A stretch of DNA of 64,000 nt from Hymenobacter yonginensis (GTDB lineage: Bacteria; Bacteroidota; Bacteroidia; Cytophagales; Hymenobacteraceae), in NCBI RefSeq assembly GCF_027625995.1, contig NZ_CP115396.1, positions 558,001 to 622,000 on the forward strand, given 5' to 3'. Numbering within the stretch: the first letter of the stretch is position 1; each line of letters opens with the position of its first letter. Below are positions 59,922 through 64,000 of this stretch, piece after piece. Under the pieces are notes generated by a model. That model was not told the origin of the DNA. It ran no database searches and saw nothing but the letters and a program-made list of their open reading frames with translations. Position numbers and translations under genes: made by a program.

Positions 59922-60065
59922 TGTAGAGACGCAATATTTTGCGTCTCCTCGTTGCTGATATTGCTGTAGTTAGTTTCAAGTCGTTTAACGGTGCGCGTTA
60001 CTACGGTCAGCATTCCACGCAGTACCAATCGTTCAACGACGAGACGCAAAATATTGCGTCTCTAC
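59922..60065. repeat. Family B twin-hairpin repeat, copy 3
   Basis: The left arm 59922-59954 (TGTAGAGACGCAATATTTTG...) and right arm 60031-60065 (ending GCGTCTCTAC) are inverted, with a 76-base middle. The arm self-palindrome is GAGACGC-AATATTTT-GCGTCTC. It lies between argE and argH and may separate their transcripts. Confidence 0.9.
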
Positions 60066-62048: not shown

Positions 62049-62056
62049 TAGTTTTG
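62049..62056 (+). promoter_or_regulatory. -7 element TAGTTTTG of the GNAT-argG unit
   Basis: TAGTTTTG fits TAnnTTTG and would start an mRNA leader of about 450 nt before the GNAT gene, by far the longest in the window. Confidence 0.5.
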
Positions 62057-62507
62057 CAACGATTTAGCGGTTTAAACGATTTAAACCGTGAAAACACTCC
62101 CTCGCCGCCCCGCGGCACCCGTCATGATTCAACTCTCTTCTATTGCGCTTCTGCGACGACCTAGCATGGTCGTGCGAATCATGCCAGCTTAACCGCTGGC
62201 TGCAATAGTACGTCCGGGTTCCGCCTCTACCGCGAACCGACGCCGGGTCCTCCCTCCGGAGCCCACCCCAAGAGACACTTTACGAATCAACCGACCTTAG
62301 TCCGAGTGTAAGCCTTCGTGTGACGTTGCCCGGTATCCGCCGGGATGCCCCGCTCCCCGGCCTGCTGGCCCCACCTTCTTTTTGGGTTTTTGTCGCTATC
62401 GGCGTTGCTGCCTGAGCATAGGCTTTGTCTGGCCCGCGCCGTTCCCCTCCTGCTTTTCGTCTTTCCGAGTCTGCTGCCCAACTCCGGCAGCCCACCGAGC
62501 TTTGACC
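62057..62507 (+). promoter_or_regulatory. Long structured 5' leader of the arginine plus-strand unit
   Basis: The leader holds the 22-codon ORF and several hairpins: CATGATTC (62123-62130) with GAATCATG (62176-62183); ACGACC with GGTCGT inside it; CCAGC-TTAACC-GCTGG over the ORF's stop; GGTTC (62217-62221) with GAACC (62234-62238); and GGTATCC (62332-62338) with GGATGCC (62343-62349). Pyrimidine-rich stretches occur near 62390. An attenuator or riboswitch role is inferred. Confidence 0.45.
62124..62192 (+). CDS. Candidate arginine leader peptide (22 codons)
   Basis: An ATG-to-TAA ORF about 70 bases after the predicted transcription start, containing ALLRRPSM then VVRIMPA. It has three arginines, all encoded by CGA, which is used sparingly in the surrounding genes. 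Two are adjacent and followed by Pro, a context prone to ribosome pausing. The ORF is enclosed by an 8-bp inverted repeat. It precedes the arginine genes by 316 bases. Stalling under low arginyl-tRNA could change the fold downstream; this is a hypothesis. Confidence 0.5.
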   Translation: MIQLSSIALLRRPSMVVRIMPA

Positions 62508-63077
62508 ATGTTCCTACGAGTCGCCGATGCTGCCGATGCGCAGTATGTGGAAACCCTCTGTCAATGGTACGCAGAATCCGCCAAAACCCGCGGCGTCGGC
62601 ATTGCCAAGCGTGATCCTAACTATCTGATTAAGAAGATGGAAAAGGGTGATGCCATCATTGCCTTCATCGATGACCAGCTGGCGGGTTTCTGCTACATCG
62701 AAACCTTCGAGGATGCCAAGTTTGTGGTGAACTCGGGGCTGATTGTAAACACCGAGCTGCGCAAAGAGGGCCTGGGCCGCGCCATTAAGCACCGCGTGTT
62801 TGAGCTGTCGCGCACCAAGTACCCGGCGGCTAAGATCTTCGGTATCACCACTTCGGCGGCCGTGATGAAGATCAACAACGAGCTGGGCTACCGCCCCGTG
62901 ACCTTCCCCGAGCTCACCCAGTCGGACGACTTCTGGAAGGGCTGCTCCAGCTGCAAAAACTACGGTATCCTGATGGAAAACCAGCGCAAAATGTGCCTCT
63001 GCACCGGTATGGTGTACGATACGCTGGACGACAGCTTCACGCAGCAATCCATCGAAATTCTGGAGCAGAAGCACTAA
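62508..63077 (+). CDS. GNAT-family acyltransferase of the arginine cluster (ArgA-like)
   Basis: A 189-residue GNAT enzyme. The acyl-CoA-binding segment is GLIVNTELRKEGLGRAIKH, with FELSRTKYPAAKIFG and INNELGYRPVTF after it. A C-terminal Cys cluster (GCSSCKNYGIL, RKMCLCTGMVYD) is typical of the version found beside argG in Bacteroidota. It is believed to make N-acetylglutamate, in place of a classical ArgA/ArgJ. The start at ATG 62508 is chosen because the longer frame is antisense-like noise in the leader. Confidence 0.88.
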   Translation: MFLRVADAADAQYVETLCQWYAESAKTRGVGIAKRDPNYLIKKMEKGDAIIAFIDDQLAGFCYIETFEDAKFVVNSGLIVNTELRKEGLGRAIKHRVFELSRTKYPAAKIFGITTSAAVMKINNELGYRPVTFPELTQSDDFWKGCSSCKNYGILMENQRKMCLCTGMVYDTLDDSFTQQSIEILEQKH

Positions 63078-63090
63078 TTGGTAGTCACCA

Positions 63091-63270
63091 GAACGTCATG
63101 CTCCATCTGGCGTCCGCTTGCCGAAGCATCTCTACCGCTTCGTTGCAATGGTAATTAATTGGCCAGAGGTAGAGATGCTTCGACTACGCCTCCGGCTTCG
63201 CTCAGCATGACGTTCTTTTTCCCACAACCTCAGCACGCGAGATGCTTCGGCTCCGCCTCTGCATGACGGC
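63091..63270. repeat. Inverted repeat cluster (family D) between GNAT and argG
   Basis: Outer arms GAACGTCATGCT (63091-63102) and AGCATGACGTTC (63204-63215) and inner arms CGAAGCATCTCTACC (63122-63136) and GGTAGAGATGCTTCG (63168-63182) are perfect complements, followed by five Ts. A third, partial module (GAGATGCTTCGGCTCCGCCT, CTGCATGACGG) lies at 63239-63270. It could terminate or attenuate transcription into argG. Confidence 0.9.
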
Positions 63271-63293: not shown

Positions 63294-64000
63294 ATGAAAA
63301 AAAAGGTAGTTCTCGCCTATAGCGGCGGCTTGGATACGTCCTATTGCGTGGTGTACCTGACCCGGGAGCTGGGTCTGGAAGTCCACACGGTGATTGTCAA
63401 CTCGGGCGGGTTCTCCCAGGAGGAGCTGGCCGGCATCGAGCAGCGCGCCTACGAAATGGGCTCCACGCGCCACGAGGTGATTGACGTAACCGAGCGGTTC
63501 TACCAGCAGTGCCTGCGCTACCTGCTGGCCGGCAACGTGCTCAAAAACGACACCTACCCGCTGAGCGTGAGTGCCGAGCGCATGTTTCAGAGCCTGGCGC
63601 TGGCCGAATACGCCCGCGAGAACAAGGCCGACTACATTGCCCACGGCAGCACCGGCGCCGGCAACGACCAGGTGCGCTTCGATGTGGCTTTCTCGGTGAT
63701 TTCGCCCGACACCGAAATCATCACGCCCATCCGCGACCTGGGCCTCTCGCGCCAGCAGGAAATCGAGTATCTGCAAGCTAATGGCGTGGAGATGAGCTGG
63801 GAAAAAGCCAAATACTCCATCAACAAAGGCATCTGGGGCACTAGCGTGGGCGGCGTAGAAACCCTGACCTCCCGCCAGGGGCTGCCCGAGTCGGCCTGGC
63901 CGACGCAGCTGAGCCAGCACGAGCCCCAGGAAATCAGCATCACCTTCGAGAAAGGCGAGCCGGTGGCCCTGAACGGCGAAACCATGAAGCCGGTGGACCT
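63294..64000 (+). CDS. argG: Argininosuccinate synthase (3' end beyond the window)
   Basis: The first 235 codons of ArgG. The ATP pyrophosphatase loop VVLAYSGGLDTSYCVVYL, SVSAERMFQSLALAEYAREN, the substrate-binding HGSTGAGNDQVRFD, and SINKGIWGTSVGG are clear. It joins citrulline and aspartate using ATP. The gene is open to the window edge and follows GNAT after a large inverted repeat. The rest of the pathway (argC, argD, argF') would be expected just beyond. Confidence 0.95.
   Translation, partial: MKKKVVLAYSGGLDTSYCVVYLTRELGLEVHTVIVNSGGFSQEELAGIEQRAYEMGSTRHEVIDVTERFYQQCLRYLLAGNVLKNDTYPLSVSAERMFQSLALAEYARENKADYIAHGSTGAGNDQVRFDVAFSVISPDTEIITPIRDLGLSRQQEIEYLQANGVEMSWEKAKYSINKGIWGTSVGGVETLTSRQGLPESAWPTQLSQHEPQEISITFEKGEPVALNGETMKPVD

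Follow-up and report, generated by a model that had tools for sequence, protein, structure and literature searches.

Attenuators of the his and trp type comprise a short ORF, with codons for the amino acid of the downstream genes, and alternative RNA pairings. Leader-peptide attenuation is known mainly for amino acids other than arginine and for phyla other than Bacteroidota. The Bacteroid-trp RNA is presumably an attenuator as well. It is described, in the available part of the source, as a candidate cis-regulatory RNA of Bacteroidetes (RF01692; PMC2864571) and relates to a different amino acid; an Rfam search of the leader studied here returned no match to it. A 2010 survey, in the part available, states that to its authors' knowledge leader-peptide attenuation had not been shown outside Proteobacteria and Actinobacteria, adding a histidine case in Firmicutes (PMC2965389). 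Leader-peptide control in Bacteroidota is suggested in general terms in the available parts of two reports (PMC9723704, PMC7366714), the latter describing short ORFs within long 5' UTRs of Bacteroides thetaiotaomicron (PMC7366714), and searches of the open PubMed Central library revealed no arginine leader peptide 5' of arginine genes in Bacteroidota.

By analogy, the nearest working model for the leader here presented would be orf34-speF of Salmonella, as described in the available part of its report (PMC6386406). There, as here, the leader ORF is short and two of its Arg codons are consecutive (codons 12-13 in that system), hairpins occur at and after the stop codon, and the ORF takes part in long-range pairing with downstream RNA. 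The same part of the report gives no intrinsic terminator, in agreement with none being consistently found here, and low arginine sustains expression, as proposed here. On the contrary, orf34-speF governs polyamine formation and not arginine synthesis, and effects of Rho and RNase G are demonstrated there, whereas Rho is here only proposed. According to the available part of its description, rbfL of Staphylococcus aureus is also alike in that a leader peptide senses arginine via rare Arg codons, but it has 8 codons, overlaps the ribosome site of its target and, under arginine limitation, lowers translation of a biofilm regulator (PMC13009471). The carA leader of Pseudomonas aeruginosa, again from the part of the source available, shares a leader peptide 5' of a gene for arginine and pyrimidine synthesis, but differs in that possible attenuation is by pyrimidines while arginine acts at the transcriptional level (PMC4997734).

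The locus analysed lies in a 64,000-nt stretch of Hymenobacter yonginensis DNA (contig NZ_CP115396.1, positions 558,001 to 622,000), hereafter the window. On its plus strand the leader is followed by the gene that opens the unit, encoding a GNAT-type acetyltransferase-like protein (62508..63077; weak acetyltransferase matches, under curated cut-offs), and then by argG, for argininosuccinate synthase (63294..63998, plus strand; Pfam match over the cut-off, NCBIfam match on the partial protein, the gene being truncated by the window end). The minus strand carries argH, a gene for an ArgE/DapE-type deacylase, and also argB. Among 59 loci, themselves retrieved with the GNAT protein, 58 carry argG downstream of GNAT on the same strand. 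A search of the plasmid collection gave no match. Several repeats were observed in the vicinity: a 25-nt inverted repeat with 96% complementarity (59930-59954 / 60034-60058) between argH and the deacylase gene and, in the GNAT-argG gap (63122-63259), an 18-nt inverted repeat with 94% complementarity together with a 21-nt repeat that is present twice and starts with GAGATGCTTCG. The pattern of this 21-nt repeat is absent elsewhere in the window, and it is possibly a dispersed genome repeat.

The first-pass annotation regarded this leader as a candidate arginine attenuator. The present analysis supports that reading through an Arg-bearing ORF kept in relatives and conserved helices, some of them with compensating changes, and the GNAT-argG arginine unit probably is under the control of a leader-peptide attenuator that senses arginyl-tRNA, a regulatory role that we infer for the ORF and leader together. 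Upstream, TAGTTTTG (62049..62056, plus strand) constitutes a promoter-like -7 box of the TAnnTTTG type, judged from the sequence and from the box consensus and position given in the available part of PMC9723704. Applying to it the Flavobacterium box position (-12 to -5; PMC9723704, same part) places the predicted transcription start at ~62061 and gives a leader of ~447 nt, the median leader in the Flavobacterium species of that report being 24 nt over 890 genes. A TAnnWTTG box is located within 110 nt 5' of the leader ATG in all 40 ORF-bearing loci of the Hymenobacter clade.

The leader ORF of the window, MIQLSSIALLRRPSMVVRIMPA (62124..62192, plus strand, from the ATG at 62124 to the TAA at 62192), has 22 codons, including three for Arg, all of them CGA (codons 11, 12 and 18), as had been claimed. 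The two adjacent CGA codons, Arg11-Arg12, are followed by Pro and constitute the proposed stall site (62154..62159, plus strand), with Arg18 at 62175..62177 on the same strand. CGA is rare among Arg codons, with 2/100 in six neighbouring genes and 66/876 in a set of 28 long ATG ORFs from the window, not all of which need be genes. Nonetheless, the leader ORF taken alone is not beyond chance, at least three Arg being found in 105 of the window's 208 ATG ORFs of 15-40 codons and adjacent Arg in 59; it is the comparison with relatives that raises it above chance.

This comparison covered 51 loci of the Hymenobacter clade, namely the window and 50 others, and used two ORF searches. The conserved stretch CTTYTGCGACGACC, searched without any length condition, matches 31/51 loci, and all 31 have their in-frame ATG and their stop in common. 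The second search demanded 22 codons and the ending [RLK]xxPA, permitting Arg, Leu or Lys at position 18, and detected the ORF in 40/51 loci, its length, Pro21 and Ala22 being in this set partly the result of selection. Met1, Ser5, Arg12 and Arg18 are invariant among the 40 ORFs, while position 14 holds nine different residues, and the stop codon is TAA in 31, TAG in 8 and TGA in 1. Conservation of a short ORF with Arg codons had been suggested as a check, and relatives do keep one. The three-CGA pattern is retained in part: Arg12 is present in 40/40 loci (CGA 34, CGG 5, CGT 1) and Arg18 in 40/40, always as CGA, but Arg11 is absent in 6/40, so that codons 11-12 are both Arg in 34/40, and other leader families differ. 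The synonymous share of single-base codon differences, computed on pairs of related sequences and not on independent events, is 0.57 in frame versus 0.23 and 0.34 out of frame, and an in-frame synonymous excess is found in three separate leader families. From these comparisons, the leader ORF is very probably translated.

With the 22-codon, [RLK]xxPA search, the ORF is absent from 11/51 loci (L019, L036, L038, L040-L045, L050 and L057), so that some members of the Hymenobacter clade have lost the device or carry a replacement. A promoter-like box of the TATGTTTG type is located ~300 nt 5' of GNAT in five of these loci (L036, L040, L041, L050, L057), and in L019 and L044 such a box was recognised by eye. 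A possible six-codon ORF was also observed, reading MMRRRV in L036 and L040 and MTRRRV in L041 and L057, and ending in the CGRGTGTAR motif described below. A covariance model of the ORF region, R1, gave one match per genome in 13/80 family genomes, all 13 directly 5' of the GNAT match (coordinates compared by eye); at least 6 other genomes of the 80, with GNAT identity of 81-89%, have no R1 match, in agreement with the ORF-less loci.

The leader RNA is predicted to be strongly structured. For the window, the RNA 62060-62320 shows a fold z of -4.48, none of 200 shuffles being as low, and the truncated leaders of the 40 loci show a mean z of -3.57, with values below -2 in 35. Hairpin P0 is located at the leader 5' end (CGGTTTAAA/TTTAAACCG, 62068..62088, plus strand), with 78.1% of cells paired and 3/9 pairs changed on both sides over 32 sequences. 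In the minimum-energy fold of the window, the outer closing helix LR0 pairs ACACTC with GAGTGT (62094..62099 with 62304-62309, plus strand); at least 4 expected pairs are retained by it in 30/40 loci in the truncated leader and in 11/40 in the full leader, a drop due to the CGRGTGTAR motif being predicted to pair downstream. Inside it, LR1 joins TGATTC and TCTCTT with AAGAGA...GAATCA (62125-62130/62284-62289 and 62134-62139/62270-62275, plus strand), as indicated by folding, pairing and the cognate scan. Pairing reaches 92.9% in its outer half, where 4 cells show a compensated change from T-A to C-G, and 83.9% in its inner half, where no cell does. P1 (CTATTGC/GCAATAG, 62140..62146 with 62202-62208, plus strand) is 82.6% paired with 3 compensated cells, and P2, a hairpin within codons 11-17 (ACGACC/GGTCGT, 62156..62173, plus strand), is 95.9% paired and shows changes on both sides in 6 cells. 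P3 (GCCAGC/GCTGGC, 62183..62200, plus strand), which holds the stop codon in its loop, is 100% paired over 37 distinct sequences and, being invariant, is uninformative on covariation. After the ORF, hairpin P4 (62211..62242, plus strand) is 74.8% paired, with 5/9 pairs changed on both sides. At least 4 expected pairs are found in the truncated leaders of 38 of the 40 loci for LR1, 30 for P1, 39 for P2 and 40 for P3.

The first-pass annotation had anticipated compensatory changes in the leader stems, and these differ between helices. Covariation is clear in the sequences of the flanking hairpins P0 and P4, which together have 31 cells changed on both sides, versus 12 in shuffles and at most 21 in slid structures. 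For the helices that involve the ORF (P1, P2, P3 and LR1) it is only modest because slid structures score nearly equal (8 vs 9 changed cells in the test of P1/P2/P3 and 11 vs 13 in the test that included LR1), though with far fewer paired cells, while shuffled partners never match the double-change counts of these helices. Whole-leader RNAalifold on a MAFFT alignment recovered only 2/26 pairs with changes on both sides, and the helices were consequently tested singly, having been picked after viewing the sequences. An inverted repeat CATGATTC (62123-62130) / GAATCATG (62176-62183), previously pointed out, is indeed present in the window; as a conserved stem it was rejected, since over 37 distinct sequences no pair is changed on both sides and two of the inner pairs are disrupted, one in 18 and the other in 16 of them.

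In an alignment-free test of own versus foreign strands over 24 loci, P1 came out best of 406 stop-anchored tests (z -5.9), followed by the LR1 area (z -4.3), while the best of 406 GNAT-anchored tests reached z -3.0. In another family, comprising 13 loci whose leaders mostly have 21 codons, a site ~50 nt past the stop pairs with codons 7-11, own partners giving on average -11.2 versus -7.9 kcal/mol for foreign ones (permutation p 5e-5, for stretches picked after having been seen). The own partner ranked first in 4/13, as several of these loci share an identical strand. No convincing long-range helix was found in the leader groups a and b described below (best z -3.3 among 168 tests and -3.0 among 272). 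According to these models, the layout shared between families would be one in which early ORF codons pair beyond the stop and thereby enclose the Arg codons.

No motif of the leader is kept more widely than CGRGTGTAR (CGAGTGTAA, 62303..62311, plus strand), which is partly the 3' strand of LR0 and is present in 50/51 loci. It lies ~190-280 nt 5' of GNAT in 49/50 clade loci and persists where the ORF is absent; its pairing in LR0 accounts for this conservation only in part. The possibility that it marks the end of a second small ORF was discarded as a general rule, its frame relative to upstream sequence varying by locus and start codons being inconsistent.

Leader ORFs of other families differ in peptide and partly in Arg codons. 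In group a (L062-L101, GNAT identity 70-77%), an ORF of 32-34 codons is present in all 40 fetched loci and ends in CGA-CGA-NNN-TAG, with CGACGA in 40/40 and NNN being CCC in 38 by alignment. The DNA of this group around CGACGACCCTAG is similar to CGACGACCTAGC of the window, suggesting from the sequences that the Hymenobacter leader form may have descended from that of group a, lacking one base and having a longer frame. Of 14 more distant loci (L102-L115, 53-59%), 13 make up group b and have an ORF of 42-44 codons that ends in R-x-R-P-stop or, once, R-P-R-R-stop, L115 having a different one. Six further Hymenobacter-like loci (L116-L121) carry the 22-codon ORF, two of them duplicating L046 and L039.

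On a wider scale, GNAT homologues were found in 64/158 sampled Bacteroidota genomes, and the upstream regions of 59 were examined. Of these regions, 29/59 contain an ORF in which 4 or more of 8 codons are Arg, versus 1.6 +/- 1.2 in shuffles (largest of 40 shuffle sets 4; z 22), and 38/59 one in which 3 or more are, versus 8.4 +/- 2.2 (largest 14), leaving 21/59 loci without an ORF of 3 Arg in 8 codons. For the other 19 amino acids, the top count at 4 or more in 8 is 6/59, for Leu (4.8 expected), and the next z-scores after Arg are 7.0 for Val (3/59) and 5.6 for Ala (4/59), all of these phylum z-scores overstating independence because the loci are related, 13 of them sharing one 21-codon form. 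Several forms feed the Arg enrichment, such as RIPRRR-stop, PTRRRP-stop, RRPYMPRA-stop and RRRRYFFRV-stop. Together with the conserved codons of the Hymenobacter clade, this points to arginine being quite probably what is sensed through the leader ORF. Two other traits were observed. Flavobacterium-like leader ORFs with SPEVR near their end, mutually alike and with few clustered Arg, are found in L167, L168, L174, L175, L177, L058 and L059, the first five, which are phylum loci, being scored as misses by the enrichment test. In L136, L155, L139, L159 and, with a variant loop, L134, a hairpin with loop TAGGTGAGTCC and varying stem letters lies 3' of the leader ORF.

Regarding the step through which the leader would act on the downstream genes, no consistent intrinsic terminator was detected. 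With a home-made scan, candidates occur in 22/51 Hymenobacter loci versus 34% of shuffles and, at a stricter cut, in 14/51 versus 15%, and the window has one weak site versus 0.8 expected. There is some excess in group b (L102-L114, 7/13 vs 18% of shuffles) and in the phylum set (12/59 vs 12%), and a deficit in group a (L062-L101, 4/40 vs 23%). In equilibrium folding with masked ribosome footprints, neither the GNAT start nor the C-rich region changed, so that the model shows no translational switch at equilibrium. P1, P2 and P3 do respond to the masked footprints, and LR1 falls modestly, from a mean of 7.4 to 5.0 expected pairs; at least 4 expected pairs of LR1 are kept in 31 of the 40 loci when the RNA is free, 22 with the ribosome at Arg12, 24 at Arg18 and 27 at the stop. 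The leader past the ORF (62193..62507, plus strand) is C-rich and G-poor (C 37.8%, G 25.1%), a possible Rho loading region, and C exceeds G there in 40/40 loci versus 2/40 for the start of GNAT, although composition is weak evidence. As no consistent intrinsic terminator was found, Rho acting on this stretch is regarded as the most likely output, but only tentatively.

Within the proposed mechanism, ribosomes would translate the ORF during synthesis of the leader. With ample arginyl-tRNA, the ribosome would reach the stop codon, where it would cover P3, and depart, letting the closed domain of LR1, P1, P2 and P3 reform, and expression would go down. With scarce arginyl-tRNA, it would wait at CGA-CGA, where it would cover the 5' strand of P1 as well as P2 but not P3, and the downstream genes would be expressed. 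Rho, by inference only, would act on the C-rich stretch past the ORF.

Other readings of the same leader were considered. One is that the ribosome is stalled by the nascent peptide itself, acting with either free arginine or an intermediate of the pathway, in the manner of TnaC or SpeFL. The peptide is indeed conserved beyond Arg inside each family and the endings R-R-P-stop and R-x-R-P-stop recur, TnaC presumably also ending in R-P-stop, but little besides the Arg codons is common between families, which do not share one peptide, and in Hymenobacter the stop-adjacent residues are explained by the stop-codon hairpin without any role for the peptide. Such an arrest sensor is consequently judged improbable.

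Somewhat less probable still is that the leader is a structured RNA regulator with an incidental ORF, acting as a riboswitch or by binding a protein. In favour of this reading are (i) the stable predicted fold, with z below -2 in 35/40 loci, (ii) the clear compensating changes of P0 and P4, and (iii) the presence of CGRGTGTAR in 50/51 loci, ORF-less ones included; yet an incidental ORF hardly agrees with a constant start, frame and stop, the latter realised by three stop codons at one place, with the in-frame synonymous excess, or with Arg enrichment at an equal position across different leaders, nor did Rfam return a match at gathering (the best hit, at E = 2, scored 16.6 bits where 50 are required). 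That the ORF encodes a small functional protein, or is Arg-rich without any regulatory role, appears very improbable: chance alone yields many short Arg-rich ORFs in the window, but the place before GNAT stays the same although the peptide varies between families in sequence and in length, and the ORF belongs to a conserved predicted fold.

The proposed attenuator, which would sense arginyl-tRNA through its leader peptide, shares with the his and trp types a short ORF, translated according to the comparison, clustered Arg codons, placement 5' of argG and, as predicted, alternative RNA pairings. It differs in that a terminator was sought and not consistently found, and for this reason it is not classed as a classical attenuator, though it would work like one. 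As a tentative extension, Bacteroidota as a phylum might control GNAT-argG through Arg-codon leader peptides of many unrelated sequences, which would have replaced each other in evolution while one layout was kept, with early codons pairing past the stop to enclose the Arg codons; several families would in addition enclose a hairpin that contains the stop codon. If true, this would provide a simple rule for matching arginine synthesis to supply across Bacteroidota, as well as natural variants for attenuation without Shine-Dalgarno sequences or intrinsic terminators, and its terminator-less output would represent a distinct, Shine-Dalgarno-independent kind of attenuation.
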